From NCBI GenBank assembly GCA_937936785.1, contig CALDDQ010000006.1, forward strand, positions 1 through 64,000: a stretch of DNA of 64,000 bases, in the 5' to 3' direction. Positions within the stretch are counted from its first letter, which is position 1, and every line of letters begins with the position of its first letter. Of the stretch, positions 16,300-39,185 are shown piece after piece. Made by a program: the position numbers and the translations under genes. Source of the stretch: an uncultured Endomicrobiia bacterium. GTDB taxonomy: Bacteria > Elusimicrobiota > Endomicrobiia > DTEH01. The notes below the pieces were generated by a model. That model did not search any database. It was given only the letters and a program-made list of their open reading frames with translations, and was not told the DNA's origin.

Positions 16300-16341
16300 C
16301 TGTTATCTCCTATAAAATCTGTAAATTTATAAAAATTTAAA

Positions 16342-19474: not shown

Positions 19475-19541
19475 TTCTTTTTTTTACAAATTTTATCAAG
19501 ATTAAACTTACATTTTATCTACAACTTATAACCCACATACT

Positions 19542-20486: not shown

Positions 20487-20616
20487 AATAGTTTTTCTCC
20501 TTGGTATTTATCTTTTACCAAAAATTGATAAATAATATAAATAACACACAATTTTGAACTTAATGTATTTTTTGTACTACACAAATTTTGTATTTTTGAC
20601 TTATTTATTTTATATC

Positions 20617-21651: not shown

Positions 21652-22824
21652 TTATTTTAAAATTCTTTTTGTATATCTAAAAAGTTTTGCTTCTCCTTCT
21701 TCTGTCAACCACAAATATTTTTTGTTTATAAAAAATGACGATAAAGTTTTGTCAGTTAAAACGTCTACTTTATAAGAATTTTTTATTTCAGAATAATCTT
21801 TTAGTTGGTGCAAAAAATTGTTTTTATCATAAACCCAAATTTGATTTTCCTTAGAACTCATCAAAGACATATTTTTTACTACAAAAGGTATTGCAACTAT
21901 TTCGTTAAAATTTTGGTCATACAAAATTATTTTTTGTTCACCACTGTCTACTATTAAAATATTCTTTTTATATCCGACAATAGCTGTTGGGACTGAAGTT
22001 TTTACATCAAACATTTTTATCAAACTCAAATTGGACTTAGACATAGAATATTTATAAACCTTCTTATTCCAACCATCTAATACCCACAACTTTTTGTCTG
22101 AAACAACAATTGATGTGGGAACAACATTGTCTTGAGAAAGTTTTTCAGAATTAATTTTTTCTAACTGATTTTTGTTAATTTTATAAAAAATAATTTCTTG
22201 TGTTGCCCAGTCACTCAATATTAGTTGGTTTTCATGCTCTGTTATACTTGATATAGAATAATTTTCTATCTCAAAAACTTTTTGTTCCTCATTTTTTTCA
22301 AACAAAGTAGTCTTTGTTACCATAAAAAACAATCCTATTAAAAATACAATACCTGCTATAATATATAAAACTATATTTTTATTAGAGACACAGATTAATT
22401 GTGAATCTGTTTTTTGTTGTGCCAATAAACTGTCATTCACCGATTGTGTAACAATTGTTTGTGAAACATTTGTGTCTTTTACATATTGTTTTTTATCTTC
22501 TTGTTCACTGTTTTGTTTTACAAAATTTTTTGTTGGTATTATCATACTAATTTTTGCCAACAACTCATCCAAATTACGTCGTGCATCCAAGTATCTCGGA
22601 TTTAATCTTAACGCATATTCAAATTCTATCCGTGCTTCTTCATAATAACCACATTTCATTAATACTCTTCCTAACGAATTATGTACATCAGCATATCCAC
22701 AACCAGAACTAATAGCTTTTCTGTATTCTTCAATAGCATTTTCAAACTCATTTGTAGCCTCATACACCCGACCGCGATAATAATGTCTTATAGCATCAAT
22801 TGGAGTTTGAATTTTTTGCATCAA
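21652..22824 (-). CDS. Cassette copy B: TPR, transmembrane and periplasmic beta-propeller protein
   Basis: The protein has 390 residues. Residues 1-85 hold two to three TPR units (YYRGRVYEATNEFENAIEEYR, ADVHNSLGRVLMKCGYYEEA, EYALRLNPRYLDARRNLDEL). A linker leads to one membrane helix near 150-170 (IVLYIIAGIVFLIGLFFMV). A repeated strand-rich region (SDWATQEIIFYKIN, VLDGWNKKVYKYS, IVDSGEQKIILYDQN, VYDKNNFLHQL) reads as a propeller facing the periplasm. It matches the architecture of 31472-32638, which has a receiver-like domain in place of the TPRs. It is the last gene of the eight-gene run. Its start is 8 bp after the kinase-like gene. I infer an envelope-spanning sensor or scaffold. Confidence 0.65.
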   Translation of the reverse strand: MMQKIQTPIDAIRHYYRGRVYEATNEFENAIEEYRKAISSGCGYADVHNSLGRVLMKCGYYEEARIEFEYALRLNPRYLDARRNLDELLAKISMIIPTKNFVKQNSEQEDKKQYVKDTNVSQTIVTQSVNDSLLAQQKTDSQLICVSNKNIVLYIIAGIVFLIGLFFMVTKTTLFEKNEEQKVFEIENYSISSITEHENQLILSDWATQEIIFYKINKNQLEKINSEKLSQDNVVPTSIVVSDKKLWVLDGWNKKVYKYSMSKSNLSLIKMFDVKTSVPTAIVGYKKNILIVDSGEQKIILYDQNFNEIVAIPFVVKNMSLMSSKENQIWVYDKNNFLHQLKDYSEIKNSYKVDVLTDKTLSSFFINKKYLWLTEEGEAKLFRYTKRILK

Positions 22825-22832
22825 TATTACCC

Positions 22833-23972
22833 TTAAATTTTTTTAGTATTAAAACTTATCTCTACATCTGTTCCTTGGTCAAATATTGAATTTACCAAAA
22901 TACTAGCATTAAACATTTTTAAAATCCAGTATGTTCTAAACAATCCTATACCAAAATGTTTTGTTTCTACTTTTGTAGTAAAAAAAAGATTAAATATTTT
23001 AGGTAACAAATGTTCTGGAATACCACAACCATTATCTGTTATCTTAAGTTTAACAACTTCTTTTTCTTTTAAAATTTTTATTATTATTTTATTATTGTTA
23101 TCCCTGACAAAAGATTCTATAGAATTTTGTAATATTTCGCTCAAAACATTTTCTATCAAATTTTTATCTGCATATATAAAAATTTCTTCCTGGCTTAAGT
23201 GTTTTATTATAGAAACATTTTTATTTTCAATATTACTATGCATCTTAGTTAAAACATCATCTATAAGTGTATTCAAATTAATACTTTGTATATAAACCTC
23301 AGGAATATACAAAGATTCTTTTAACTTAAGCATAATCTCTGATATTTTATTAATTTCATCACTTACAAAAATAACTTTGTTATTAGTTGTAGAAGCACCT
23401 ATTTCATCTTTTATAATTTTTAACGCTTCTTCAATAACTCCTCGTCTTGTTCTTATAAATCTTAAAATTTCATTAGCTATTGAATATAAAAAATCAAAGT
23501 TGGTTTTTACACTTAAATCTTCTTTTTTTTCGATTACATTTTTTTCTAAGTTTGACTTAACACTATTTTGTTCATTAGTTACCTGAACAGTTTTTTTTAA
23601 CAAATCTATCTCTGTTTTATCTTTTTCTGCAGATAAAATTGAAACTCGAGCAATTTGTTCTTTTAAGATCGTATCTAAATTGGCATATTTTAAAGATACT
23701 TCTTCTATATCTTTTTGTAGTTGTTGAATAACTTTTTCTTTTTCTTTAACTATAGCATCATAACCTTTAGCAATTTCTTCCAACAACATATTTTGTATTT
23801 CTGAAAAAACTGTTGGAGAAAATTCTGACAATTTATCTTTTGTTGCAGAAAATAAATCTGCTGAAATACCACTTTTACGAACATGTATCTCTTCTGTCAA
23901 CTGCTGGACACGATCTCTAATTTTTTTTAACCGCAGCTTTTGTTCTTCTACTATCCTGTCTAAATCAGACAT
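22833..23972 (-). CDS. Cassette copy B: coiled-coil protein with histidine-kinase-type ATPase domain
   Basis: This protein of 379 residues has no membrane segment. Residues 1-160 form a long coiled coil (VEEQKLRLKKIRDRVQQLTE). A helical pair follows at 165-245, then a GHKL ATPase at 250-379: N box ENVLSEILQNSIESF, G1 ITDNGCGIPEHLL, F box IFNLFFTTK, G2 HFGIGLFRTYWIL. In the helical pair I see no phosphoaccepting His (LYSIANEILRFIRTRRGV), so it may be a non-canonical kinase or an ATP-driven switch. The matching gene in copy A (32645-33601) has the coiled coil but no ATPase. A cytoplasmic location is inferred. Confidence 0.75.
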   Translation of the reverse strand: MSDLDRIVEEQKLRLKKIRDRVQQLTEEIHVRKSGISADLFSATKDKLSEFSPTVFSEIQNMLLEEIAKGYDAIVKEKEKVIQQLQKDIEEVSLKYANLDTILKEQIARVSILSAEKDKTEIDLLKKTVQVTNEQNSVKSNLEKNVIEKKEDLSVKTNFDFLYSIANEILRFIRTRRGVIEEALKIIKDEIGASTTNNKVIFVSDEINKISEIMLKLKESLYIPEVYIQSINLNTLIDDVLTKMHSNIENKNVSIIKHLSQEEIFIYADKNLIENVLSEILQNSIESFVRDNNNKIIIKILKEKEVVKLKITDNGCGIPEHLLPKIFNLFFTTKVETKHFGIGLFRTYWILKMFNASILVNSIFDQGTDVEISFNTKKI

Positions 23973-24070
23973 TTTAGCACCTTTAAATTATTAGTTTTTT
24001 TTAAAATCCTGTTGATATGTTTTATTTATATTTTTCACTTTAAACTTTCAACTTTTTATGTTTTTTATTT

Positions 24071-25642
24071 TTATGGAATCTCTAAAACTGTCCCGGGCAA
24101 AATCTGTCCTCGGATAATTTTGTCCTTGTTAGCATCATAGATCAATTTCCATTTTGAACTATCTCCATAATATTTTTGTGCAAGATTTGGTAGTGTATCT
24201 CCAGCAACAACTGTATGTATTCGTTTTTTAGGTGTAGTAGTAGAAGGTTGAACTGGTTGAGAAATAACTTTAGGAGGTGTCGTAGTAGGTGGTGATACTG
24301 GTGTTAAAGTCTGTGTTGGTGTAGGTGTAGGGACAGGAGCAGATTTTTGTTGTTTTATTTCTGGTCTTTGTTCTGTTTCTTTCAACTTTTCTTCTAACAA
24401 CTTTAACCTTTCTAACAACAATTGTTCAGTTGTTTTTTGTGGTTCAGGTTTTTGGTCCAGTTCTGCTGATTTTGGTTCAACTATAATCGCAGGAAAACTT
24501 TCTTGTTCATCAGCAATTTTTTGAACTTTATCTTGTTTAACCCTTTTTTGTTCTTCTACAAGTTTTTTTTCTGAAATTTTTTGTTGTTTAACATTTTCTA
24601 TATTTTCTTGTTTAATCTTTTGTATTTCTGATTTTAAATCAGTTATTTGTTTCAAAAGTTCTTCTCTTTCTAAAGACAACTCATCATAATATGTTTTTGC
24701 AACAGTTTGTTTATCTAACAAAACAGGAATAAATTTATATGAAAAACTTATTCTATGTTGCGATATAAAATCTATTTTTTGTAGTGGATCTATTTGCACA
24801 CTATAACTAAATCCTAATTTTTGTGTCTGCAAAGTAAATCCTGTATAAGTAACAAAATAATTTCTACTACCAAAGTTTATCCCTAAAGATGGGACAAATT
24901 TTAATGTGTTAAACAATACAAAATCATGCTCTGCAGCAAAACCTATCTCATTATCCGTTTTTGTATTAGTTTCTATCCCAACAGAAGTATATAATTTTAG
25001 TTTATCAAAAGAATATTTATATCCTAACTTTATTTCCATGGGCAAAACTTCTGAAATATAAAATCCTATATCAGGTTGGTTAATATTTTCAATTAACAAT
25101 CCTAATATATCATTATTTCTAATATACTGAATGCCAACAGACGCAGAGAAATATATTTTAGAACTAAAATTTGCAAAAACTGGATTTATAATCATATATT
25201 CATCTAAAATATAACCCTCATTTATTAATTTTAATTTTATCCCAGCAACAATTTTTGGTATAACCTTTTTAATATATGTCCCATAGCTTATTACCACAGT
25301 ATCTTTAGTATACCAATCCTTTAGCCCAAACTGGTTAATTCCTATTCCAAACCCATGTTTTTTTAGTTTCATAGAATAACCAAGCGTATTGTTTATAAAT
25401 TTACTTCCATCAGTTAAATTGTTAAACAAAATATTGTAATCAAAAAAAATTTCAGGCACCAAAACACTTTCTAACCCAGCCGGATTATAAAATAACTGGT
25501 ATGCTTTCTCTGTTTCACAAACTACATTTTTCCCTATTCGGTCAACTTCTGCAGAAAAACCTGTATCAATACTGTATAGCGAAATGTTTAAAATCAACAA
25601 CAAGTGCAATATTAAAAATTTTTTTAATCTAAAATATTTCAT
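24071..25642 (-). CDS. Cassette copy B: outer-membrane barrel, coiled coil and LysM protein
   Basis: From ATG 25642 the protein has 523 residues and a signal peptide (FLILHLLLILNISLYS). The ATG nine codons upstream would give a poor leader. Residues about 20-300 resemble PorV/UPF0164-type barrels (YQLFYNPAGLESV, repeated LGYSMKLKKHGFGIGINQFG-like strands). A coiled coil (about 320-380) and a Pro/Thr-rich linker follow. The C-terminus is a LysM domain (HTVVAGDTLPNLAQKYYGDS), which binds peptidoglycan. The protein could therefore anchor an outer-membrane barrel to the cell wall. The paralogue at 33624-34961 has the same domain order. Confidence 0.75.
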   Translation of the reverse strand: MKYFRLKKFLILHLLLILNISLYSIDTGFSAEVDRIGKNVVCETEKAYQLFYNPAGLESVLVPEIFFDYNILFNNLTDGSKFINNTLGYSMKLKKHGFGIGINQFGLKDWYTKDTVVISYGTYIKKVIPKIVAGIKLKLINEGYILDEYMIINPVFANFSSKIYFSASVGIQYIRNNDILGLLIENINQPDIGFYISEVLPMEIKLGYKYSFDKLKLYTSVGIETNTKTDNEIGFAAEHDFVLFNTLKFVPSLGINFGSRNYFVTYTGFTLQTQKLGFSYSVQIDPLQKIDFISQHRISFSYKFIPVLLDKQTVAKTYYDELSLEREELLKQITDLKSEIQKIKQENIENVKQQKISEKKLVEEQKRVKQDKVQKIADEQESFPAIIVEPKSAELDQKPEPQKTTEQLLLERLKLLEEKLKETEQRPEIKQQKSAPVPTPTPTQTLTPVSPPTTTPPKVISQPVQPSTTTPKKRIHTVVAGDTLPNLAQKYYGDSSKWKLIYDANKDKIIRGQILPGTVLEIP

Positions 25643-25721
25643 TTCTCTAATTTTTTGACAACAATTCATTCTATAAATTTGTGTCTGTTTTTTTTATTCC
25701 AATTTTTACTACAAGAATCTA

Positions 25722-28700
25722 TTATTTGGCAACAATTATTGTCCCTGTAAAAACAGAATCTCCAATTTTTATTTTGTACAAATAAATTCCTTTTGGCACT
25801 ATCTCGCCAGAATCATATTTTCCATCCCAAACAAGTTCATAATTTTCATACTTCATTTTTGATACATATCTTAAACTAATATCATAAATTTCGCCTTCAG
25901 GTTGAGAAACAGAAATATTGTTTAGCACAAAATGTATGACATTGTCCACTGGTGCAGAAGGAGTAAAAATTTTTTTTGGATATATATTAACTATTTCATT
26001 TTTATTAGCAAACGATACTGCCCTAATAACAAAATTTCCTATGTTTTTCGTTTTCGTTGTCAACTTTGATGTTGTAGCATTATACCCACTGTTTATAAAA
26101 ATATATTCTATACCATTGTGCCAAAAAAGTTTTGGTGTAAGAGTTTCGTTTTTAACCGATTTTGAAATTGTGGCAAAGTTATTTTTTGAAATACCAATCT
26201 CTAACTCTAAAGGTGCATCTAATTTTATATCCACAGGTTGAGAATTTTTGGTAATAAACAAATTATATTTGTTTATCATATTCATCCTTTCAATTTCTGA
26301 CAAACTTATAGTTTCTGAAGATATGTCTAAAACTAACCCATAATTTTCCATTTGAGATTCAACTTTTGATGGTATCACAACTTTTACTTCTATCTCAGGT
26401 CTGTACAAAACTCTACTTCCTCTGTTATAACTTGAAACAATATCCGATGATTCACTTTCTACACCAGTTAAAGTTACTACTTTAACTAAATAGTAGAATG
26501 TTCCACCTTGAATTTTATCTAAAAATATTGTTACTGTTGAAGGTAAAAAATCATACCTCGGTTGCCAATCGGATGTTAACAAAGAAACATCTGTGTTCCT
26601 ATAAATGTTATATCCTAAAATATCATCAGCTTCTGTGCCATCATCATATTGTGTAACTTTTTGCCATGCAATTACAAAATTGTTCTGTAAATTATAGCCA
26701 TAGGTTAACTTTTGAATTTTTTTAGGTATGTTAATTTTGTTAATAAAAAAATTATAAGAAACAGTATCACTCCTAACACCAAAATTGTCTATTGCAACTA
26801 TATTCAAATAATAAGTCGTGTTCTGAAACAAATTTTTTTCTACCATAAAATTTGTCCCAGCAACAAAAGTTGTCGTTTTGAACAAAAAATTTTCCATAGT
26901 AGAAATGTTTAATTCGTAATTTATCACATAACTGTTTTCTTCTAAATGGTTTGAATTTGTCCACGAAATGGTTGGTTTTTTTGTAAAAACACTTTTTGTT
27001 GGAGATGTTACAACAAACGTTGATGGTTTAAATGATGGAACATAGAAACTTCCTGTACTATTAGAAGTAGTAAAACTTGAAGATTTATCATAAACAATAA
27101 TTTTCCAATAATATGTTGTCTCCATTGACAAAATGTTACCTAAAGACAACTTGTGTGTTGTTGCAGTAGATATATTAATTAATACTGAAGTAGTTTTGTG
27201 TGATTCAAAATTTGTATTATCACAATATTGTAATTTATAGTGTGAGATACCATCATCAATATCTATAACTTTTCCCCACTTAAATTCTGGGGTTCGTGTG
27301 TTAACAGTTATTGTACCTGTAGGATATAATAAGTCAAAACTTTCTGGTGGATCATTTATACTATCAACAAAAAAATAAAATGTTGTAGAACTTTTTATTT
27401 TACTATTGTCAGTTGAAACAGCAACCACCCACCAAAAATATGTTGTGTTTTCTTGTAAACCGTAAAATGTGTATGATGTTGTTGCTTTAAATAATGACGA
27501 TTCTATATTCTGTCTATAAACATCGGAAAATATTTGTGCAGAAGATATTTGAACAGAATTAGATGTGTAGTATAAACTATAATTAACCTGTTTCCACCAT
27601 TCGGCCCTATTTGCTGCTGACCAAATAAATGTTGACGGTTGAACTATACTGTTAAACCCTAACTCAGAACCGGGAAAAACTAAATTAAAATCGTTCAAAC
27701 CATCATCTATGGTATCACATACAAAATAATAACTTGTGTTACTTATTTTATGTAACCCAGTTGTATCATAAGCCTCAACCCACCAATTGTATATCACATT
27801 TTCAGTTAACGGAAATTGCATTGTGTAATTAACATTATTGCTTCCAACAATTATTATATATGTGCTACTACTAACGACATATGATGATATTGTTGAAATG
27901 CAAAGTTTATAATAAACAACATAATCTTTAGGATCAGGATCTGAAGTTGGAGACCAAGAAAAAATTGGTTGTAAAGTTGACAAAAAACCTGAAGTTATGT
28001 TTATATCAAAACTTAACGGTTTTTCTTCAACATAATTTGTCCAAAAAGTTGTTATGTTTGAGGTTGTTAAATCAACTGTAAATGTAGGAGTATCTTTTGC
28101 AACTACACGCCAAAAAATTTGTTTGTTTTCTTCAAAAGTCCATGGAGAACTTATCTGCACAGTAGTGCCTTTCTGAGAAGGGCTTATAAAATATCCAGAA
28201 CTTAAAAATATTGAAAAATTAGAATATGAAGAGTATTGTATCGTATAATATATATCATCGCCATCGGGATCACCATTGTTTTGCCATTTAAACACAGGAG
28301 TTAAAGTTTGAATTACAACATTATCAACAGGTTCAACTAACAAAAATTCTGAAGGAGAAAAATTGTCCACACTAAAAACAAATGTAGAATACGGTGTCTG
28401 ATAATTACCTACCTTGTCATATGCAATAACTGTCCACCAATAAGTTGTTTTTGACTGCAAACCACTACCAAAAAAATAATAGTTTGTTGATACCCAAACT
28501 TCAGTTACAAAAGAAAAGTTTGAATAACTACTAATCCGAACCACATAACTTGATACATATGGTTCATAATTATCATTATCAGTTGCAACTTCCCAGTAAA
28601 ATGTTGGTTTAAATAATTTTATACTACTGTATAATTCAGAAGTTGTACTTGTCCCGGGATAAACTAAACTAAATTTGTTCGGAACATTATTTGATACCAC

Positions 28701-31463
28701 AAAAGATGCAGTAGAATTTAAAAAACCATATGGTAACGCTGTAAACGGATTTGAAGTTGAAGTTTCTATATTCCACTCGCGTTCTCCCCAAGATAATACC
28801 TGCCAAAAAAATGTGTTTCCGGGAGCCAATTCTTTTAACAAAGTTATGTTATAAAACGTTGTTTCTCCTGAAAGTGTTGTTATTGTTGTAATAGTTGCGT
28901 TAAACCAACCTTCTGATGTAGAAGGAATGTATGTTGACACAAATAAATACAAATATTTTGTCCTATCAAGAGGGTCCGGATCTACAACTTGTGTCCAACT
29001 AAAATTTATTTCTGCAGATAACGATGTTGGATTATAAACATTAACAGGGGCAACTGCATCATAATTATTTGGTGCATCAGAAGTAAAATCTATTATAAAC
29101 ATCATTGGGGAAACGGACGTATTAGGAGAAAAAGTTGCCGTACTGTTCCAAATCCAGAACGGATTTGTCACAGGATGATATGCTTTATCTATTGCACGAA
29201 CGCGCCAATAATATGTTAGATTTTCTATCAGGTAAAGATCTGTATCTGGAGCAGTTCCAGCAGCAGGATTGGAATTTATCACTGTAGAGGAAAAATATAC
29301 TTCGTTCTGAAATGTATCATTATCTTCAACATATCGCCAACCGCCTTCAAAAATTCCTAATTGAGGATCTTTCGCTAAAGATGTTCCTATAAAAATTGTG
29401 TATCCAATAACAACATCTTGAGGGTCGGGATCTGTTGTTAAATCCCAGTTTAAATATATCGGCAAATTTTTTACTATATAAAAAGTTGTATTTTGTCCTA
29501 AATCATAATATTTAACAATTCCTGGTCCTGATGCTGGATATACATTAAATTCATATGGAGATTCATCTTTTTGGTTAATATAAAAATACGTTGCCTGTGT
29601 TGGTAAAGATTCTAATCTTTGATACCCAAACGGTGCGCCTGAATCGTATGCTATAACATACCAATAAATTTTTTTATTATCATATGGCAATAAAATCGTA
29701 GATGCTGGTGTAGAAACTTGTGTCATTAAAAAATATGAAGTTGCTGGGTTTGTTACAGAAACTGTAGTAATTATAACATTAAAATCTGATACTGTGGATA
29801 AAATTATTTCGTACTTGGAAATGAAATCACCGGGATCTTTATCAAAAGCATTTTTCCAGTCAAATTCTATACTAAAATTTTTTGTATGCCAATAAGTTGT
29901 CGGTTTTAATAATGGATTTGATGTAAATTCTGGTGCAAAAGAATTCTGCGAGTTTATAATAAACCTAAATATTGTAGAAGAAAAAACTACGTTTGACAAA
30001 CTTTCTGAATCATAAACTGTCAAATTCCACCAATATGTCGTATCTTCAATTAAATTATGAATAGTATAAGAAGTAAACTCTATAATTCCAGAAATTGTTA
30101 AAGTGGATTCACCTAAACTTGTTCCGATTACAAAAGTTGAAATTTTTAATGTATAAGAAGAAATATAATCGCCATAAACACTGTCAGAACTACCCCCAAC
30201 AGTCCATCCTGCATTCCAACCAACTTCGCCCCAGTCAAGAACTATTGTAGTTGATGAAATTATTAAACTATTAACAAAATTACGAAGTGGATCTTTTGCG
30301 TAATGTTTTGAAATGTTTGTGCTGGGATAGTATGATGGAATATTATTTTTTGGTAATGCATATGGCGAGCTTGAACCTACAACTGTTGACCAATTATTTT
30401 TTTCATCGGCAACTTTTATTGCAAAAAAATATGTAGTATTGTTTGTTAAAGGAAATAAAACTGTCGTAGTTGTAACATTAGGAACAAGATCAACTCCTGT
30501 AATAAAAAAAATTGTTGTTGCACTGTTCCACAAATTTTCTGTATTAATCTGTGTGCTACTATATCTAACTTCATAACTGCCAGAATAGATAGATGAATTA
30601 TACGGTTCTAAAGTATCATCTTCAACAGGAATTGTCCAAGTTAGTTGAATATGTTTATACCCTGATTTTACTAAAATATTAGTTACACTTTTTGGTGCTG
30701 AAATGTCAACTTGTGCCCAGGTTGTTGCACCATTAGAAATTTCAGAAATGTTTCCAACATCATCTTTTGTCCATAATCTAAAATAATATGTAACACCTGA
30801 CAATAAACCACTTATTACATATTGCACTGTAGTTGCAGAATTTATACCAGAAGTGCTTATCACTACTTTAGGTGTATCGTAATTCCAAAAATGATTTGCA
30901 TCAGTACTATAATCTATTATCCACTGAGACCCAACATCTAACGGGTTATATTTACCATCATCTCCAACTCCACTCCAAAACAAACTTATTTTTCCTTCAG
31001 AATCTCCTTGTGTAGCATCAACAAAATTTGCCGATGACGGTGGGTATGCTGTTATCCAACCGGTTGCAACGTTTGATATTGAAGAAAAAATTTGTTCTGT
31101 CCCAGAAGATGACCATAAAACGAAATAGTATTTAACATCTTTATAAAATCCAGTTAAATGTTGTATTGTATACTCCTGTTGTTCATTAACTGTAACCGGT
31201 CCTGTAGAAAATATTACCTGAGCAGACATCGTTGACCAAAAAACTGTTGAAAAAGTTGTATATTGCACATAATATTTACTTTCCGCAGGTAAATTACCCG
31301 GTCCGGGAAATGTCCATTTAAGTTTGATACTTCCCTCAGATAATTCTGATAATCCAGAAACTGCTATTAAATCTACCACAGAATTAGGTGTGGAAAATAT
31401 ATAATTATTTACACTTATAAATAATGTAAATATTAGAGTTAATTTTATATACCGAAAATTCAT
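25722..31463 (-). CDS. Cassette copy B: giant secreted fibronectin-III-repeat protein
   Basis: The protein has 1913 residues with a signal peptide (KLTLIFTLFISVNNYIFS). The body consists of many FN3-like units of about 100 residues, each with a W-x-x-x-x-DPD (or DD) turn and a [TV]-x-YYW-x-V-x-A-x-D strand (for example TYYWRVRAIDKAY, TYWWTVIAYDKVG). It is very rich in Ser, Thr, Tyr and Trp. The C-terminus is a FlgD-like Ig domain (YELVWDGKYDSGEIVPKGIYLYKIKIG), which in other didermal bacteria marks cell-surface or secreted proteins. It has the same layout as 34974-39185. Its start is 8 bp after the propeller gene of copy A, so the two cassettes are probably co-transcribed. Likely role: adhesin, sheath or cell-surface fibre. 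Exact function is unknown. Confidence 0.8.
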   Translation of the reverse strand: MNFRYIKLTLIFTLFISVNNYIFSTPNSVVDLIAVSGLSELSEGSIKLKWTFPGPGNLPAESKYYVQYTTFSTVFWSTMSAQVIFSTGPVTVNEQQEYTIQHLTGFYKDVKYYFVLWSSSGTEQIFSSISNVATGWITAYPPSSANFVDATQGDSEGKISLFWSGVGDDGKYNPLDVGSQWIIDYSTDANHFWNYDTPKVVISTSGINSATTVQYVISGLLSGVTYYFRLWTKDDVGNISEISNGATTWAQVDISAPKSVTNILVKSGYKHIQLTWTIPVEDDTLEPYNSSIYSGSYEVRYSSTQINTENLWNSATTIFFITGVDLVPNVTTTTVLFPLTNNTTYFFAIKVADEKNNWSTVVGSSSPYALPKNNIPSYYPSTNISKHYAKDPLRNFVNSLIISSTTIVLDWGEVGWNAGWTVGGSSDSVYGDYISSYTLKISTFVIGTSLGESTLTISGIIEFTSYTIHNLIEDTTYWWNLTVYDSESLSNVVFSSTIFRFIINSQNSFAPEFTSNPLLKPTTYWHTKNFSIEFDWKNAFDKDPGDFISKYEIILSTVSDFNVIITTVSVTNPATSYFLMTQVSTPASTILLPYDNKKIYWYVIAYDSGAPFGYQRLESLPTQATYFYINQKDESPYEFNVYPASGPGIVKYYDLGQNTTFYIVKNLPIYLNWDLTTDPDPQDVVIGYTIFIGTSLAKDPQLGIFEGGWRYVEDNDTFQNEVYFSSTVINSNPAAGTAPDTDLYLIENLTYYWRVRAIDKAYHPVTNPFWIWNSTATFSPNTSVSPMMFIIDFTSDAPNNYDAVAPVNVYNPTSLSAEINFSWTQVVDPDPLDRTKYLYLFVSTYIPSTSEGWFNATITTITTLSGETTFYNITLLKELAPGNTFFWQVLSWGEREWNIETSTSNPFTALPYGFLNSTASFVVSNNVPNKFSLVYPGTSTTSELYSSIKLFKPTFYWEVATDNDNYEPYVSSYVVRISSYSNFSFVTEVWVSTNYYFFGSGLQSKTTYWWTVIAYDKVGNYQTPYSTFVFSVDNFSPSEFLLVEPVDNVVIQTLTPVFKWQNNGDPDGDDIYYTIQYSSYSNFSIFLSSGYFISPSQKGTTVQISSPWTFEENKQIFWRVVAKDTPTFTVDLTTSNITTFWTNYVEEKPLSFDINITSGFLSTLQPIFSWSPTSDPDPKDYVVYYKLCISTISSYVVSSSTYIIIVGSNNVNYTMQFPLTENVIYNWWVEAYDTTGLHKISNTSYYFVCDTIDDGLNDFNLVFPGSELGFNSIVQPSTFIWSAANRAEWWKQVNYSLYYTSNSVQISSAQIFSDVYRQNIESSLFKATTSYTFYGLQENTTYFWWVVAVSTDNSKIKSSTTFYFFVDSINDPPESFDLLYPTGTITVNTRTPEFKWGKVIDIDDGISHYKLQYCDNTNFESHKTTSVLINISTATTHKLSLGNILSMETTYYWKIIVYDKSSSFTTSNSTGSFYVPSFKPSTFVVTSPTKSVFTKKPTISWTNSNHLEENSYVINYELNISTMENFLFKTTTFVAGTNFMVEKNLFQNTTYYLNIVAIDNFGVRSDTVSYNFFINKINIPKKIQKLTYGYNLQNNFVIAWQKVTQYDDGTEADDILGYNIYRNTDVSLLTSDWQPRYDFLPSTVTIFLDKIQGGTFYYLVKVVTLTGVESESSDIVSSYNRGSRVLYRPEIEVKVVIPSKVESQMENYGLVLDISSETISLSEIERMNMINKYNLFITKNSQPVDIKLDAPLELEIGISKNNFATISKSVKNETLTPKLFWHNGIEYIFINSGYNATTSKLTTKTKNIGNFVIRAVSFANKNEIVNIYPKKIFTPSAPVDNVIHFVLNNISVSQPEGEIYDISLRYVSKMKYENYELVWDGKYDSGEIVPKGIYLYKIKIGDSVFTGTIIVAK

Positions 31464-31471
31464 TTTTTAGT

Positions 31472-32638
31472 TTATAACAATATTTTGTTAGAAATTTTAT
31501 ATATCTTTTTATCACGATCGTTTAATAAATAAAACCAGATATCATTCATCGCTAATGAAACAAAATGTTTGTCTTCACCAAAATATTGGCTTAACCTTAT
31601 AATTGATACTGTTTTTAAATCAGGATAAGAAAGCTTGTATACCAAATTTTTATTGTCTAAGAAATAAATGTGATTGTTATAAAAAAAAGTGTCTATTGGA
31701 AAAAATTCTTTTAATGTAAAAGATGCATTTAATACCGTATCAAAATTTTCTTGAATTTTAAAACTATAAAGTTTTTTTTCATTATCTAATATAAAAAGTG
31801 TGTTATTGTAAACATTCATTGCCAATATTGCAACATCTTTTAGTGGTAAAATTTCTTTTACTGGACTATCAAAATCAGGATATTTATAAACATATATTTT
31901 ATCAACAAAATTAGAACTTGTAAAAATATAATTCTCTTTATCATAGACATATGATGTAATAGTCCCAAACTTGTGTTCAGGGACATACATCTGTAAAATT
32001 TCATCCGTACTAACATCATGCTTAAAAATATTTTTTATACTCCAGTCGCTTACCATATATGTGTTATCTAAAAATGTTATATCAGAAGGTGTAACATAAG
32101 GCAAACTTATCTCAAAAAACATTTTTGACTCAACCTTTTTGGCTAAACTAATATTGTAAATATTAGTTATAAAAACTACTAATATTGTAGCAAAAAGAAT
32201 TGTTGTAATTATTTTTATCCCTAAAAAAAATTTTTTGTTTCTTTTTTCTAAACCTGCTAATTCAACCTCTTGTTGCCACAAATTTGGTTTAGAAAGTGAA
32301 AACCACATTATGTTGGAAAAAATTGTTTCTATTTCTTTTTCTGTAGCAGGTATTTTAATCGTGTTTAATCCTAAATCTAAAATTTTTTCTAATTTTACAG
32401 GATCGTTTAATTCTCCTATTATACTTAATGGAATGAAAGGATATTTATTAACAATTTTTTTTATTATCTTTATTGGAACATTTTCTTCAAAAAGTATTGT
32501 TTGTGGCTGAAAATCTAATACAATCTTTTCAACATCTTTTACAGGAAGAGTTATTACTTTTGTTTGATATTTATTAAATAATCCTTGTAATATGGTAAAT
32601 TCTGTTTTTGTAGAATTTATAAAAAGTATTTTTTCCAT
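31472..32638 (-). CDS. Cassette copy A: receiver-like, transmembrane and beta-propeller protein
   Basis: The protein has 388 residues. Residues 1-110 have a receiver-like alpha/beta pattern (KILFINSTKTEFTILQGLFN, PFIPLSIIGELND, TIKIPATEKEIETIF). The acidic pair is INS and the phospho-Asp position reads TILFEEN, so phosphorylation is doubtful. One membrane helix lies at about 140-165 (IITTILFATILVVFITNIYN). The periplasmic part is propeller-like (DITFLDNTYMVSDWSIKNIF, LDNEKKLYSFKIQ, FLDNKNLVYKLSYPD). It corresponds to 21652-22824, whose N-terminal domain is TPR. I infer signal transmission across the inner membrane. Confidence 0.65.
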   Translation of the reverse strand: MEKILFINSTKTEFTILQGLFNKYQTKVITLPVKDVEKIVLDFQPQTILFEENVPIKIIKKIVNKYPFIPLSIIGELNDPVKLEKILDLGLNTIKIPATEKEIETIFSNIMWFSLSKPNLWQQEVELAGLEKRNKKFFLGIKIITTILFATILVVFITNIYNISLAKKVESKMFFEISLPYVTPSDITFLDNTYMVSDWSIKNIFKHDVSTDEILQMYVPEHKFGTITSYVYDKENYIFTSSNFVDKIYVYKYPDFDSPVKEILPLKDVAILAMNVYNNTLFILDNEKKLYSFKIQENFDTVLNASFTLKEFFPIDTFFYNNHIYFLDNKNLVYKLSYPDLKTVSIIRLSQYFGEDKHFVSLAMNDIWFYLLNDRDKKIYKISNKILL

Positions 32639-32644
32639 TAAAAG

Positions 32645-33601
32645 TTAAATCTCAAACTCTAAAATTGATTTTGCGATATCGTCTAAAACAGATAACATCC
32701 TCTGCACTGTAGCAAGAATTAGTTCATGATGAAATTTTACTGACCTTTTTGAATTGGAAAATTTTTCACAAAAGTTTGTTGCTCCTATTATTATCCCAGA
32801 TAAACTTCTAATTTCATTTATATAACTATTCACCATCTGAACAATAACATTTTTTAATTCTTTTTTATCTGAAACATTTTGTTGTTTAAGTTTTTCTATT
32901 GTTTCAGTTAACTTTTGTTTTTCTAAAACAATATTTTGTTTCTCTGACCTTACATTCTCTAAAATTTTTTTTGTTTCTTCAAGTTCAGATACTACTGTAT
33001 CAACCTTAGATTTTGCAAAATCTATCTCTGTTTTGGCTGTGTTAACTATATTTTCTAAATCTTTCTCTAACTTGTTTGTTTCACTAATTAATTCTTTCTG
33101 AACTTCTAACAAATCGTTAAACTGGCGATTATAATATACCAACAACTCTTGTTTTTCTCGTTCATAATATTTTTTTGCACGTTCAATTTCTTGTTCTATA
33201 ACTTTTTTGTCATTTTCTAACCCTTGAATTTGTTGTTGCCAAATCAATTTTTCTTTTTCTTTAACAAGTTCTAACTCTTTTAATTTTAACTCTTCCTGTT
33301 TCTGACGTAACTTTTCAGACTCGCCTTGTTCTAACTTAGCAATTTGGTCCTGTAAATCAGTAATAATTTGTTGTTGTTGGGCAATTTTTAGTTCTATTTG
33401 TTTTTTTTCTTCTTCTTTTGTTTGCAAAATTTTTTGGTGTAAATTTTTTTCTTCTTCAATTTTACGCCGCCAATATGAAGATACTGACGGGGTAATTAAA
33501 TTTTTTACAATGTCGTCACTGTCACCATATTGTAACTCAAGTTCTGAGAGATCTTTTTCTATTTCATCCCATGTATAAAAATCTTTGTTATCTTTGTTCA
33601 T
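32645..33601 (-). CDS. Cassette copy A: long coiled-coil protein
   Basis: The protein has 318 residues. Residues 60-250 are a nearly continuous coiled coil rich in K, E and Q (for example KIAQQQQIITDLQDQIAKL). The last 60 residues (SLSGIIIGATNFCEKFSNSK, then HHELILATVQRMLSVLDDIA) resemble the four-helix bundle preceding the ATPase in the kinase-like protein of copy B, but the protein ends there without an ATPase. There is no signal peptide, so it is probably cytoplasmic. It is separated from the propeller gene by 6 bp. I read it as the truncated or ancestral counterpart of 22833-23972. Confidence 0.65.
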   Translation of the reverse strand: MNKDNKDFYTWDEIEKDLSELELQYGDSDDIVKNLITPSVSSYWRRKIEEEKNLHQKILQTKEEEKKQIELKIAQQQQIITDLQDQIAKLEQGESEKLRQKQEELKLKELELVKEKEKLIWQQQIQGLENDKKVIEQEIERAKKYYEREKQELLVYYNRQFNDLLEVQKELISETNKLEKDLENIVNTAKTEIDFAKSKVDTVVSELEETKKILENVRSEKQNIVLEKQKLTETIEKLKQQNVSDKKELKNVIVQMVNSYINEIRSLSGIIIGATNFCEKFSNSKRSVKFHHELILATVQRMLSVLDDIAKSILEFEI

Positions 33602-33623
33602 TAGTTATTTGTTCTACAAAAAA

Positions 33624-34961
33624 TTATGGTTCTGGAATAATTATTGTTTCTCCTACAACAGGCACACCTTTGATTATCTTATCTTTGTTTGCATTATAAA
33701 TTTTAGTCCAATAATCTTTATTATTATAATATTTTTCCGCTATAGAAATCAAGGTTTCACCAGAAGTAACTGTATGTGCTAAAGGAAATTTTGGTTTTAC
33801 AAAAATTGTTTCTGGTTTCAAAAATTTTTCTATTTTTTGTTTTTGAATTACAGGTTGGACAGGTTGGGATATTACTACCGTACTGATTAAAACTTTCTGT
33901 TCTTGTTTTATTTGTTCTATTTTTTGTTTTAGTTCTATAATTTGTTGTTCTTGAGAAACTACAGTTTGTTTTAACTTATTTTTTTCAGTATCAATTTTTA
34001 TTTGCTGGTCTTCGTATAAACCAAAAGTTTTTTGTTCCTTAAAGTGTTTTTTACCAAGACTACATTTTAATGTTACAAAGTGGTTGCCAAAATAATCCTT
34101 TATGTTCGTTACAGGATAAGACCATAAATATTGTATTTCTAAACCAAATTTAGACAGTATCAACGACGGTGATAAAAAAAAGTTAGTAAAATCTGTTCCT
34201 TTGTCTACACCCAGAATTATCAGTGTACTAAATTGTTTCATATCAAAAACTGTTTGTTGAATACCAAATCTATAAATGTTGTAATTATAATTTTTTGTAC
34301 TAATTTCATATGCTTTGTTAACTAATTCCAAATTTATTTTTGTATCTAAATAATTATATCCTAAACCAAAAATTATTTCTTGTGGTATTGTATACTTTAT
34401 AACATTTCCTGACACTTGTTTTAAAATATTTCTATAACTTAATGCAGTAAAAAAATTTTTTGCAATTTTGTATCTAAATCCTAAGTCTAAATTTATACTC
34501 GGTTCTGTATTATTAGCTACAAAATCATTTAAATAATAATCATCTAAAATGTATTTATAAATATAACTTTTAAAATTTATCCCTGTATGTAATTTTTCGT
34601 TTAACAATTTTGTGTTAAAATTTAACATCAGCAATTCTTCAGAATATATCTGAGAAACAAAAATTCCTCTATATCCAAACCCCAGGTTTAGGTTATTTAA
34701 AGAATAACTAAACACCATATCTGTGTTATCAATTTGATTTTCTGTTATTGCGGAAAAAATGTTCCCATAACGACAAACAAAATTTATTTTTGAAAATACC
34801 GGTTCACCAGCAGGATTAATAAAAATAACAAAACCATCTTCAAAATATCCACTAAACACAGGTACCAAAGGAAATTGTTCAACTGAAAATAAATTATTAT
34901 AAAAACTAAACAAAAAAATATTTAACACAATTGTTACACCAAATATTTTTCTAAATTTCAT
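33624..34961 (-). CDS. Cassette copy A: outer-membrane barrel, coiled coil and LysM protein
   Basis: I chose ATG 34961, and a TTG start at 34973 would touch the preceding stop. The protein has about 445 residues with a signal peptide (GVTIVLNIFLFSFYNNLFS). A strand-rich barrel region (FVIFINPAGEPVFSKINFVC, YSLNNLNLGFGYRG, FFTALSYRNIL) extends to about 315. A coiled coil (VVSQEQQIIELKQKIEQIKQ), a short Pro/Lys linker and a C-terminal LysM (HTVTSGETLISIAEKYYNNK) follow. The LysM end (IYNANKDKIIKG) is almost the same as that of copy B (IYDANKDKIIRG). It is probably a cell-wall-tethered outer-membrane protein partnering the adjacent FN3 giant. Confidence 0.75.
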   Translation of the reverse strand: MKFRKIFGVTIVLNIFLFSFYNNLFSVEQFPLVPVFSGYFEDGFVIFINPAGEPVFSKINFVCRYGNIFSAITENQIDNTDMVFSYSLNNLNLGFGYRGIFVSQIYSEELLMLNFNTKLLNEKLHTGINFKSYIYKYILDDYYLNDFVANNTEPSINLDLGFRYKIAKNFFTALSYRNILKQVSGNVIKYTIPQEIIFGLGYNYLDTKINLELVNKAYEISTKNYNYNIYRFGIQQTVFDMKQFSTLIILGVDKGTDFTNFFLSPSLILSKFGLEIQYLWSYPVTNIKDYFGNHFVTLKCSLGKKHFKEQKTFGLYEDQQIKIDTEKNKLKQTVVSQEQQIIELKQKIEQIKQEQKVLISTVVISQPVQPVIQKQKIEKFLKPETIFVKPKFPLAHTVTSGETLISIAEKYYNNKDYWTKIYNANKDKIIKGVPVVGETIIIPEP

Positions 34962-34973
34962 ATTTTTTTTCAA

Positions 34974-37900
34974 CTAATATTTTACAACAATAGTACCTCT
35001 AAAACTCTTTTCCTTAAAACTATCTCCTTGTGGTTTGGCTGTTATATTATAAACATAAACACCAGGTAAAACATAATCTCCATTATTATCTTTACCATCA
35101 AAAAATAAAATATTTGTCTGTTTGCTTTTCAAATCACAAACTTTTTGTCCTGATAAATTATATAATTCACCAATTAAAAACGAATCTGTCCTGTAAACAA
35201 AATTTATTTCATCATTTATTCCATCACCATTTGGTGTAATTATTCTTTTATACGGAGAACAACCTAATATTGTTAACTTATCTTCATATTCTTCTGTTTT
35301 TAAAAACAATCTATAACTACCTAAATACTGTGTCTTAAAAACTAACCTGTTTGATTCTTTTGATATTTTATTATAAAAAACAGGTTGCCAGTTTATCCCA
35401 TCAAAAAATTGTAATTCATAATTATTTGTCGTTTCAGGCAACATAATAGTTATTTCAACAAAAGTGTCAAGTTTAGTTTTTTCTGAAGAAACAATATAAT
35501 ATCTCGGATAACTTTGTGTTTCCAAATCTGTTCTACGAACTACTGTTATCATTGTTTCACCAATATCTTTTTTTGATGTTGTAACTATTAAAGTTTTATC
35601 GTTAGAAGTGAACAAAATCGCTGGTTCAAAATTGTATAACCTTGCAATATTGTTTCCTGAACTTTCAATATTCCACAAATTTTGTGTTTTGATAATATAA
35701 TAGTATTCTATATTACCTGCAGTTTCGTCAATAAAAAATGTTGATGTTGTTATTGACAACAATGTTTTTTGAGTTGAAGTAAAATCTATTGTGCGGTAAA
35801 TTTTATAACTATGAAAATCTATAAAATCGCTCTCATCTTCATTTTTACTAACATTTAACCATTTTAGTAAAATACCTTTTGCATCTGAAGATATCGTTAT
35901 ACCAGAAGGGTCTAACGGTCTTGTGTTCGGAGTAAAAAATTTGTTCACCTGGCTTATACTGTTTCGCCCATATGAATCATATCCTTCAACCAACCAATAA
36001 TAAGTTGTAAATCCTGAAAATAATAAAGTTGTAACTTTATATTTTGGTTCAAAAGTTAATATTTCTGTTTTTATATTAAACGAAGCTGAAGATGAAATTA
36101 TAAGTTTATAAGTAAATGTATCTATTGAAACTACGGGATTTACTGGTGACCAGGTAAATTCTGGTAAAGAAGTTATAGATAAATTGTTTAGTGGGTAAGA
36201 TAATGTAATACCATATTCTGGTAAAATAAATGTTTTTGTTGAAGAAATTGTTTCTAAAAAATCTGTATCGTAAGAAATTATCCGCCAGTAATATGTTCCT
36301 GCAGAAATTAAATAATCTGTCAAATTATATTGTGGAACATTTATAGAACTTACAATTGTTAAAAAACTAAAATTTGATATTGAAGAAATTTCTATTCTAT
36401 ACCTAACTATATCAAAAATGTCAGTGTCTGTAGCAGTACTGAAATAAAATGTATATGGTAAAGAAATTATTTTATCTATCGGATCTAAAAGTATAACTTG
36501 TGTAGGTGGTTTAATGTCATACCTCGCCCAAAAACGTCTTGTAATAGATTGTGTTTTGTTGTTAAAAGTATCTATAGCAACTACGTACCAATAATATGTA
36601 GTATCATCTTGAAGTGATAACTCTAAAGTTGTTGAAGTTTGTGATATATGATATATTGTGCTATTTAACCATTGGTTAGTTGTAACATTAACTTCATAAT
36701 AAAAATTGTCATTTTCATAATCGGAAGAAGGTTTCCATTGTAAAACTATATTTGACGATATAGATATATAATCATCCGTTGGAAAAAACAGTTCTGGAAC
36801 AAGTGGAGCTAAATTTTTTATTACAAAAGTAAAAGTAGAGTTTGATACAGTATTCCCTGTCCTGGTAGAAATTGCGTTAACATACCAATAATATGTGTTG
36901 TTAATTTTTAAAATTTCATCTCCAAGAATATATTCTGACATAACTAATCCTGCAGATGAATGGTAGATAAAAGAAAAATCTGCTTTTGTAGAAATTATTA
37001 TGTTATATCTTACAAAATCAAACGGGTCAGGATCGTAAGTTTGTTGCCAAGAAAAAGTTGTTTTTGGTAAAGAAAATGTTGAACCATTTGAAGGTGAGAT
37101 TAAATTAAATGGCACCGGCGATTGAGCAATATAATCTAAAACAAAAACAAATGTAGAACTACAAATTCTATAATTTAATTCTTCATCAAAAGATATCACT
37201 CGCCAATAAAATGTTGTATTGTCTTGAACAACTGGAAGAATTATATTATTATTTGTTGTTTCAGAAGAAATATAAAAATTAAATGTTGAATAAGAAGAAA
37301 AATCTATCTTATAAGTTATCAAAGTTCCTTCAGGATCTGAAGAACTTTGCCATGAAAAACTTACCTCGGAACTTATTACAATCTCGTTATTATTAGGTGA
37401 CAACAACTGAAATTCAGTAGGATAGTTGTTTAATATTAAAAAAGTTCTTACTACAGTTTCACTGGAAAGTACTGGAGGTGGGTTGCCATTATCATAGATA
37501 ATAATTTTCCAAAAATATGTAGTAAAATTTAACAATGGTACCGAAGGAATATAAAATGAAGTTCCCGGTAATAAATTTACTGTTGTTGTATCGAAATTAT
37601 TCCAATAAACAAGTGTTTGTGTAGAAATTCCTCCTTTAATATCTGTATCAAATCCTTCCTCCCAATCAAATCTTGGCATAAAGTATCTTGTAGTTAAATT
37701 GTTTAACGGATTTAATAATTTTGCAGTGGCTGGGGGTAAGTTTATTGCATCTGTAAAAAACCAATATGTGGTTGTAGAATATGAAAACTCACCATAAATT
37801 TCATCCCAAACTTTTATCCGCCAAAAGTATGTTGTTTCTTCCTCCAAAGTAAAATCTGTTAAATGATAAAATGTTGCATATTTAAGTTTGTCTGTTGTGG

Positions 37901-39185
37901 TATAGTAAATACTATTTAATATTTCTGGTTCATCAGAAAAAGTAGAAATTATCAGTTGATAATAAACTTTACTATACGGATCAGGATCGTAAGTAGAAGT
38001 CCAGGAAAATATTGGATTTAGTGTATTTACAAATGGTACTGGATCTATGTAAGAACCTGTCCCAGGAAAAATTAGATAGTTATTTATTGGAGAATCATTT
38101 ATGTTGTTAACAAAAAAATAGTTCGTTGTAGATTGTGAGGTTAACATAGCAACATCTGTTGCAATAATATACCACCAATATGTTGTATTTTCAGTCCAAC
38201 CACCAAAAATACTTGGTAATGTAAATGAAGAATAATTTATTCCTAAAACCGCAACGGCAAAACCTTCTAAATTGCTTATGGATGAAACATACAATTTGTA
38301 AGTTATATAATCATTCGGGTCAGGGTCAAACGCATCGGTCCAGTCAAAAAATACTCCATCTGGAATACTTGTCGTAGTAGAGTTCATCACAGGATGTATC
38401 AAACTTACCGCAAAAGGTGGTTCAGAAGTATGGTTTATAACAAATTTTCCTTGATTCTCATTTTGCACCGACCAGGAAGATAACCATTCCAAATCAATAC
38501 ATTTTATCCGCCAATAATAGGTTGTGTTATCAAATAAAGATAACGCATCAAAATTTAGTTCGCTTGAAGTAATGTTACTAACAACATTTGCACCAGTAAT
38601 ATCAGGTGGCGTAGAACTGAAAAGTTTATTTGGGAAAGTTGAATAATAAAGTTCATATTTTAAGGTATCGCCATAAGGAACATCTATATCACTAACATCT
38701 GGCCAATCAAAAACTATATTTTGTGAAACAACAACTGTCCCGTTTGTTGGATAAATCAAATTAAATGATGGAGGAGAATTGTTTGTTGGTGTTCCAAAAG
38801 GTCGTGAACTGTTAGAATCTATTGTTGACATAACTTCACCAGAAGTTGAAGTAGAAGATTTTATTGCAAAAAAGTAGGTTTTATTATTTTCTAAATTATA
38901 GAATGTATAAGAAGTAACTTCACCTTGTAGAGGTGATGTCGATATAACAACACGATACGGATATATATTCTCTGAAGAATTGTTTACCCAATCTAACTCT
39001 GTGGACAAAATTTTATACGTAGAAACACGAATTTCATACATTGCAATAGGTTCTGCAGAAACTGGCACTGTCCATTGTAATTTTATTTGTCTCCAATTAA
39101 CATTTGTAACAGATAAATCTGTAATAGCTTCAGGTGCTGAAAATAACGAGTTTATTAAAACAAATAAAATTATTATAATACTCAT
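34974..39185 (-). CDS. Cassette copy A: giant secreted fibronectin-III-repeat protein
   Basis: The protein has 1403 residues with a short hydrophobic leader (IIIILFVLINSLFSAPEA). An FN3 domain starts at about residue 20 (ITDLSVTNVNWRQIKLQW), and about ten further FN3-like units follow with the TTYYW-x-V-x-A-x-D signature. The C-terminus combines a CHU_C-like motif (ITPNGDGINDEINF) with a FlgD-like end (LPGVYVYNITA ... RGTIVVKY), typical of surface-exported proteins. It is the first gene of the eight-gene run, and a TATAAT -10 (39219-39224, minus strand) lies upstream without a good -35. Its stop abuts the LysM-barrel gene. A paralogue of 25722-31463, shorter by about 500 residues. Confidence 0.8.
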   Translation of the reverse strand: MSIIIILFVLINSLFSAPEAITDLSVTNVNWRQIKLQWTVPVSAEPIAMYEIRVSTYKILSTELDWVNNSSENIYPYRVVISTSPLQGEVTSYTFYNLENNKTYFFAIKSSTSTSGEVMSTIDSNSSRPFGTPTNNSPPSFNLIYPTNGTVVVSQNIVFDWPDVSDIDVPYGDTLKYELYYSTFPNKLFSSTPPDITGANVVSNITSSELNFDALSLFDNTTYYWRIKCIDLEWLSSWSVQNENQGKFVINHTSEPPFAVSLIHPVMNSTTTSIPDGVFFDWTDAFDPDPNDYITYKLYVSSISNLEGFAVAVLGINYSSFTLPSIFGGWTENTTYWWYIIATDVAMLTSQSTTNYFFVNNINDSPINNYLIFPGTGSYIDPVPFVNTLNPIFSWTSTYDPDPYSKVYYQLIISTFSDEPEILNSIYYTTTDKLKYATFYHLTDFTLEEETTYFWRIKVWDEIYGEFSYSTTTYWFFTDAINLPPATAKLLNPLNNLTTRYFMPRFDWEEGFDTDIKGGISTQTLVYWNNFDTTTVNLLPGTSFYIPSVPLLNFTTYFWKIIIYDNGNPPPVLSSETVVRTFLILNNYPTEFQLLSPNNNEIVISSEVSFSWQSSSDPEGTLITYKIDFSSYSTFNFYISSETTNNNIILPVVQDNTTFYWRVISFDEELNYRICSSTFVFVLDYIAQSPVPFNLISPSNGSTFSLPKTTFSWQQTYDPDPFDFVRYNIIISTKADFSFIYHSSAGLVMSEYILGDEILKINNTYYWYVNAISTRTGNTVSNSTFTFVIKNLAPLVPELFFPTDDYISISSNIVLQWKPSSDYENDNFYYEVNVTTNQWLNSTIYHISQTSTTLELSLQDDTTYYWYVVAIDTFNNKTQSITRRFWARYDIKPPTQVILLDPIDKIISLPYTFYFSTATDTDIFDIVRYRIEISSISNFSFLTIVSSINVPQYNLTDYLISAGTYYWRIISYDTDFLETISSTKTFILPEYGITLSYPLNNLSITSLPEFTWSPVNPVVSIDTFTYKLIISSSASFNIKTEILTFEPKYKVTTLLFSGFTTYYWLVEGYDSYGRNSISQVNKFFTPNTRPLDPSGITISSDAKGILLKWLNVSKNEDESDFIDFHSYKIYRTIDFTSTQKTLLSITTSTFFIDETAGNIEYYYIIKTQNLWNIESSGNNIARLYNFEPAILFTSNDKTLIVTTSKKDIGETMITVVRRTDLETQSYPRYYIVSSEKTKLDTFVEITIMLPETTNNYELQFFDGINWQPVFYNKISKESNRLVFKTQYLGSYRLFLKTEEYEDKLTILGCSPYKRIITPNGDGINDEINFVYRTDSFLIGELYNLSGQKVCDLKSKQTNILFFDGKDNNGDYVLPGVYVYNITAKPQGDSFKEKSFRGTIVVKY

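Follow-up and report, generated by a model that had tools for sequence, protein, structure and literature searches.

In a 64,000-nucleotide stretch of DNA from an uncultured Endomicrobiia bacterium (Elusimicrobiota), hereafter the window, eight open reading frames (ORFs) form two four-gene cassettes of identical order. Each cassette encodes a giant protein with fibronectin type III (FN3) repeats, an outer-membrane barrel ending in a LysM domain, a cytoplasmic protein derived from a histidine kinase, and a membrane-anchored β-propeller protein. By family membership and gene order, the first two genes are of a known kind, namely a type B cargo of the type IX secretion system (T9SS) and its cognate PorP/SprF-type carrier. 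The last two are of two-component ancestry, and the intact form of that system is best read as an inverted pair of soluble kinase and membrane-spanning receiver. On balance, we consider it probable, with moderate confidence, that the cassettes encode a wall-anchored carrier bearing a surface adhesin, and that a two-component relay with a membrane-spanning receiver controls the adhesin from inside the cell. Each cassette would then be one surface adhesin unit with its own control unit.

All eight ORFs lie on the reverse strand and run from 39185 to 21652. Copy B (genes b1 to b4; 39185-31472) is transcribed first and copy A (a1 to a4; 31463-21652) second, and the gaps along the strand from b1 to a4 are 0, 22, 6, 8, 52, 98 and 8 bp. 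An initial annotation, made from the letters of the window, had described two four-gene copies in the same order with spacings mostly under 100 bp, and had proposed a self-contained, envelope-spanning surface system with diverged copies; both descriptions held, and the system proved to be conserved. The window's genome (G000) comprises 1.56 Mb in 25 contigs. Terminator-like sites were as numerous as in shuffled sequences and promoter-like sites modestly more numerous, and neither was informative about operon limits.

Cargo and carrier

Gene b1 (34974-39185; 1403 amino acids (aa)) encodes a predicted secreted, adhesin-like protein of FN3 and immunoglobulin-like (Ig) repeats, with an N-terminal hydrophobic signal and Pfam matches to fn3 (5e-7), Ig_Rha78A_N (2e-13) and CHU_C (1.4e-6). 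The CHU_C domain (PF13585; 35025-35246), which marks type B T9SS cargo, scored 28.8 bits against a 27-bit cut-off in the Pfam scan and 35.4 bits, again over the cut-off, in the genome scan. Its counterpart in copy A, a1 (25722-31463; 1913 aa), is homologous to b1 and matched Ig_Rha78A_N (9e-16) and fn3 (1.5e-4). Directly downstream of these FN3 genes lie the PorP/SprF-type genes b2 (33624-34973; 449 aa) and a2 (24071-25669; 532 aa), an arrangement found in most relatives. The a2 product is predicted to be a PorP/SprF-PorV-like barrel of 14 strands followed by a coiled coil, a Pro-rich linker and LysM (24074-24217). Homology to a2 and a match to the A3 barrel profile identify b2 as the putative carrier of copy B, likewise a barrel with a tail of coiled coil and LysM (33633-33776; 23.6 bits). 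Both LysM domains (PF01476) scored over the cut-off. The carrier profiles matched by the barrels were the PorP/SprF and PorV/PorQ models (TIGR03519 and NF033709; 2e-8 and 9e-4 for a2, both under curated cut-offs), and members from other families scored above a2. The PorV family score reached 74.9 against a cut-off of 90 at one locus (L042), and some relatives' barrels passed Pfam PorP_SprF (49 bits against a cut-off of 22.3).

In published work, a type B cargo gene commonly precedes the gene for its own PorP/SprF-type carrier, on which the cargo depends (PMC12618676) and to which it binds (PMC9143113). From family membership and gene order, we infer that each window barrel binds the adjacent FN3 protein. 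The FN3 protein would be exported to the periplasm and then across the outer membrane through a SprA-like translocon, which would recognize its CHU_C-like C-terminus; the adjacent barrel would take this C-terminus and hold the adhesin at the surface. The carrier's periplasmic coiled coil and LysM would anchor it to peptidoglycan, whereas a disulfide bond ties the tail of Bacteroidota SprF to GldK, the protein of the moving track (PMC12635249). No Cys follows the barrel in the tails of a2 or b2.

The fold of the barrel also bears on whether it might be a FadL-like uptake channel that has only the operon in common with the FN3 protein, the latter being an unrelated enzyme or surface protein. An AlphaFold2 (AF2) model of a2 (mean pLDDT 77) contained 14 strands, a helical stretch and LysM, and its matches in the PDB were FadL-type barrels, with FadL/TodX at the top by E-value, together with chain F of the T9SS complex 8gl6 (TMt 0.57; root-mean-square deviation (rmsd) 5.1). 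The top matches are what a FadL-like channel would give, but T9SS carriers are themselves of FadL fold, and the T9SS chain had the lowest rmsd among the FadL-like matches listed. Moreover, the profiles name PorV and PorP/SprF, and most loci have an FN3 cargo gene upstream. We consider an uptake channel quite improbable and retain the assignment as carrier.

The window pairs thus resemble SprB-SprF and other type B cargo-carrier pairs of the Bacteroidota T9SS in that the 14-strand carrier barrel directly follows its own giant repeat protein, which has a CHU_C-type C-terminus, with a SprA homolog elsewhere in the genome. They differ in lying outside the Bacteroidota, in a carrier tail of coiled coil and LysM in place of the SprF Cys tail that joins GldK, in a genome with no detected GldK or GldM, and in the signaling-derived genes that follow the carrier. 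The initial annotation knew of no named system with this composition; this statement does not stand for the first two genes, and the two-component ancestry of the last two had been missed.

Secretion machinery in the genome

Among genome-wide ORFs, we found a SprA homolog of 1736 aa (C3:64983-70193; TIGR04189, E 2e-20), and SprA homologs were present in 45 of 60 relatives. Three further PorV-type barrels in the genome adjoin proteins with T9SS-like C-termini, with no propeller neighbors (C3:72491-75587, C12:17228-20790 and C23:2-3049). Judged by these homologies, the export system is T9SS-like.

The initial annotation had suggested gliding among the possible functions. Type B cargo on a SprF-like carrier is indeed the arrangement of SprB and SprF (PMC9143113, PMC12635249), and a gliding machine of the Bacteroidota type would move such an adhesin along a track. 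Searches of the window's genome and four relatives of its class (G001, G024, G038 and G058), however, returned no match to GldM at E up to 1 and only a chance-level match to GldK (E 0.09; GldL and GldN were not searched for), while three Bacteroidota genomes used as positive controls gave matches at 1e-102 or better. Bacteroidota-style gliding is therefore unlikely, since GldK and GldM are not detectable in the genome. The track-binding Cys tail of SprF is, in addition, replaced by LysM, with no tail Cys in either window barrel. We regard gliding of this type as largely refuted and very improbable.

A recent paper describes the T9SS as exclusive to Bacteroidota (PMC12618676), and another describes it as present in the Fibrobacteres-Bacteroidetes-Chlorobi group (PMC11205867). 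Set against these taxonomic limits, a SprA-like translocon and type B cargo-carrier pairs appear to be widespread in Elusimicrobiota without detectable GldK or GldM. A literature search, which covered few subscription papers, found no report of such a pair in Elusimicrobiota. The pair is thus of a known kind, in a phylum for which no report was found, and with a different anchor.

A kinase and a membrane-spanning receiver

The initial annotation described gene 3 as a cytoplasmic coiled coil with or without an ATPase and gene 4 as a membrane-anchored propeller. Both descriptions were accurate as far as they went; the copy A gene 3 is additionally a histidine-kinase homolog, and b4 additionally begins with a degenerate receiver. 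The a3 product (22833-23972) is predicted to be soluble, with no transmembrane helix, and has an intact HATPase_c domain (1e-14; kinase families up to 1e-24) with its N and G boxes. In a residue table, Arg171 occupied the site of the phospho-acceptor His. The b3 product (32645-33601), also with no transmembrane helix, is a cytoplasmic coiled coil with a C-terminal remnant of the DHp domain (profile alignment E 6e-5), Asn262 at the kinase His site and no HATPase.

Gene b4 (31472-32638) encodes a degenerate receiver (aa 1-112; profile alignment E 8e-6), a transmembrane helix (about aa 139-157) and a predicted periplasmic five-bladed propeller (aa 174-383). Its AF2 model (mean pLDDT 90) contained five receiver-like beta-alpha units, a long helix that includes the transmembrane segment, and 20 strands arranged as five four-stranded blades. 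The matches in the PDB fold search were mostly propellers, such as glutaminyl cyclase (3mbr; TMt 0.70); no match to the receiver part surfaced in that search, and its assignment draws on the AF2 secondary structure and the profile alignment. In a4 (21652-22824), TPRs that are predicted to be cytoplasmic (TPR_2, 2e-13) precede a transmembrane helix (about aa 151-169, by hydropathy) and a periplasmic propeller recognized through alignments with relatives. The hydropathy scan found the transmembrane helix of gene 4 in all tested proteins but one (L197). No PD40 match was found in the propellers.

In relatives from distant families, both proteins have intact forms. Gene 3 in families f4, f8, f10, f14, f16 and f27 aligned as a histidine kinase with no transmembrane helix, a normal H-box and an ATPase domain (ten loci). 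Gene 4 was visible at nine of these ten loci (not at L051 of f4) and encoded a normal receiver, then a transmembrane helix, then a propeller. Relatives' gene 4 matched Response_reg at up to 6.5e-34 and their gene 3 matched HisKA and HATPase_c, and the receiver's acidic pocket and acceptor Asp were intact in L042, L046, L048, L050, L201 and others. In this the intact relatives resemble classical two-component systems, carrying HisKA, HATPase_c and Response_reg with the expected residues; they differ in that the kinase is soluble and the receiver spans the membrane, with a periplasmic propeller as its output. On this domain architecture, genes 3 and 4 are best read as an inverted two-component pair.

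Among these loci we also observed additional receiver-transmembrane-propeller genes beside the cassette (L046:5515-8037, on the opposite strand, and L048:17324-18571), such that a single kinase may be paired with two or more propellers. In f16 the cassette kinase is a coiled-coil protein of 1020-1340 aa (L202:3645-6911, L207:2486-5554 and L212:15071-19090), and two of these loci (L207 and L212) have an additional gene of 1000-1170 aa between barrel and kinase.

Since the propeller is on the receiver and the kinase has no transmembrane or periplasmic domain, classical flow from kinase to receiver is expected, and the simplest flow in the intact form would be from inside to outside. Cytoplasmic phosphorylation would alter the periplasmic propeller beside the carrier tail and so control the loading, position or release of the adhesin. 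This proposal draws on domain architecture and predicted compartments, and the same parts in the same topology could also serve an outside-in surface sensor. In that case the adhesin would bind a surface, the resulting strain would be relayed to the propeller by way of the barrel, the coiled coil and LysM, and the cytoplasm would be informed by the receiver or the TPR/kinase part. The propeller, as the pair's only periplasmic domain, could be the sensor. Where the pair is intact, however, the propeller is fused to the receiver and not to the kinase, which itself has neither a transmembrane nor a periplasmic domain, and the window copies have no His-Asp route by which to report. We therefore favor control of the adhesin from inside and judge an outside-in sensor less likely, though a serious alternative.

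If the pair operates as proposed, its response regulator would span the membrane and act in the periplasm, the reverse of how bacterial signaling is usually laid out. A literature search that covered few subscription papers found no precedent for a membrane-spanning receiver with a periplasmic propeller, and we know of none. Still more tentatively, and at somewhat below even odds, the cassettes may represent a class of two-component systems, spread across the phylum, whose response regulator crosses the inner membrane, acts in the periplasm through a propeller and is wired to a T9SS-type adhesin carrier; in some lineages the system would have become a phosphate-free mechanical or ATP-driven link.

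Loss of phosphotransfer residues on both sides

The substitutions in the window recur in relatives and affect both partners. In the window, a3 and b3 have Arg and Asn in the phospho-acceptor column, the receiver pocket of b4 is degenerate, and a4 has TPRs in place of a receiver. Copy A cassettes of f1 and f2 had Arg in all seven cases, and gene 4, adjacent in six of these, had its receiver replaced by TPRs in 6/6. Copy B cassettes had Asn, Leu, Asn or Gly at the His column (n = 4) and degenerate receivers. In four genomes (L041, L045, L155 and L156) the kinase-derived coiled coil and the propeller form one polypeptide, with a dead receiver and a transmembrane helix between them; three fused proteins had Arg, Ser or Glu at the His column and a degenerate receiver-like segment (profile E 1.7e-5). 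The ten cassettes with the phospho-acceptor His included nine with a visible receiver, which was intact in every one. Altogether the state of the His matched that of the receiver in 22/22 readable cassettes (His present in 9/9 with an intact receiver and absent in 13/13 with a missing or degenerate one), counts that are not independent and may reflect perhaps two or three losses. This joint loss on both sides, together with the gene fusion in four genomes, argues for a mutual action between the products of genes 3 and 4.

Regulators are frequent in secretion operons, and genes 3 and 4 might be an ordinary local regulator that is merely co-transcribed with the cargo and carrier. The pair has no DNA-binding output, its output being a propeller across the membrane, and it was retained after phosphotransfer was lost, with the gene order conserved across families. 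We give the idea of a local regulator hardly any credence.

With these residues, neither window pair is predicted to be capable of His-Asp transfer. Copy A could still switch with ATP, as an ATP-binding switch paired with the TPR-transmembrane-propeller protein. Copy B looks like a fixed link, in which coiled coil, DHp remnant, dead receiver and propeller would form a tether. The series of intact, fused and kinase-dead forms may thus be a natural experiment in the passage from a phosphorelay to a structural link.

Genomic association of the propeller with the carrier

We examined 49 barrel genes with readable downstream context, and found a propeller gene within four genes downstream of 21/26 LysM-tailed barrels and 2/23 other barrels (Fisher p 4e-7; the relatives are not independent). 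The kinase alone was weakly associated with LysM (p 0.04), the propeller strongly. Across the phylum, 211 of 341 genomes had a match to the barrel profile and 144 of 341 to the propeller profile. When the 107 best propeller matches were compared, 59 (in 48 genomes) lay within 12 kb of a listed barrel match and 53 were on the same strand and downstream, although both profiles were made from cassette members and are biased towards cassettes, while assembly fragmentation biases the opposite way. These data link the control unit to the carrier. The carrier's wall-binding tail is predicted to share a compartment with the propeller, and the two may be in contact, with information or force presumably passing in the direction proposed above.

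Several observations weigh against a dedicated adhesin unit under propeller control. The CHU_C-like C-terminus of a1 is weak (0.027, 15 bits, below the cut-off), a2 reached 33.9 bits where the curated carrier-profile cut-off is 90.55, and the SprA homolog, at 71.6, falls under the equivalog cut-off of 200. No energy source for export was identified. Finally, many barrel-kinase cassettes elsewhere have a stand-alone receiver and neither LysM nor propeller, and the wider family can thus do without the propeller.

We also noted a sister cassette type with a PorP_SprF-like barrel that lacks LysM and in some cases has a TPR tail; after it come a kinase and then a stand-alone receiver (L210:3470-5521, L213:8576-10564 and L158:5917-7752).

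The nearest functional parallel is the PorE-PorP-PG1035 complex of Porphyromonas gingivalis. In it, PorE, which brings together TPRs, a peptidoglycan-binding domain and a propeller predicted to have five blades (PMC5053529), is joined by the PorP barrel and the type B cargo PG1035 (PMC9143113). The same kinds of part occur in the window cassettes. PorE, however, is one outer-membrane-associated periplasmic protein, whereas in the window an inner-membrane protein carries the TPRs or receiver together with the propeller, and the barrel bears the wall-binding part. The PorE architecture of TPR, propeller, CRD and OmpA_C in one protein is not that of a4, which has TPR, transmembrane helix and propeller with no OmpA_C. 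No sequence relation between the propellers and PorE was detected, and we claim no homology.

Age of the two copies

The two copies proved homologous gene by gene, as first proposed, though by different means. Using blastp with SEG and composition correction, a1/b1 (2e-44), a2/b2 (3e-12) and a4/b4 (7e-5) were matched directly. No significant blastp match joined a3 to b3 after coiled-coil masking; their C-terminal parts were connected through a shared set of intact kinases, to whose DHp domain each could be aligned by profile (E 3e-5 and 6e-5, respectively). Nor are the four genes scattered in related genomes. The full order of FN3, barrel-LysM, kinase-like and propeller genes recurs in many genomes of several families, and is kept far beyond chance.

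Of the proposed duplication with divergence, the divergence was borne out, and the duplication is old. A recent tandem event was ruled out by an identity of about 21-26% between copies, by copies that are unlinked in G001 (on different contigs, L036 and L055), and by the presence in fused forms of other families of a motif found in b4. The copies are adjacent in the window's genome and in G005 (L043), and probably in G002. In the barrel tree, four copy B and five copy A barrels of f1 formed fully supported groups; therefore the duplication is older than the f1 genera. Relatives of both subtypes are present in other families. The motif (SLSKPNLW in b4) has the form S-x-A-x-x-x-x-W and is common to b4, its f1 relatives and the fused forms, which suggests that subtype B arose before f1, f4, f8 and f10 diverged. 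Neither the barrel tree nor the FN3 tree resolved its deep branches, and neither settles a single origin of all A or all B forms.

In G002, short dispersed repeats lie in cassette gaps at contig breaks (L037: 1334-1724 and 11115-11402; L054: 10273-10452, 10802-10973 and 15540-15934), and the apparent join of b2 to a4 in L054 may be an assembly effect.

Neighboring genes

Other genes of the window, all on the reverse strand, were also noted. Just upstream of b1, a 77-aa ORF (39237-39470) reads by eye as a stand-alone Lrp/AsnC ligand-binding (RAM) domain. Directly after the cassettes (18224-21630) lie genes for a carbamate kinase, a carbamoyltransferase between the ornithine and YgeW types, and a threonine-synthase-like enzyme. 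A PilB/GspE-type ATPase and a GAF/HD-GYP-like protein are encoded nearby (15217-18138), and type IV pili are possible in this cell. Further along (3861-7358), an SNF2-type helicase of 1165 aa resembles DISARM DrmD, with a score far under the DrmD family cut-off.

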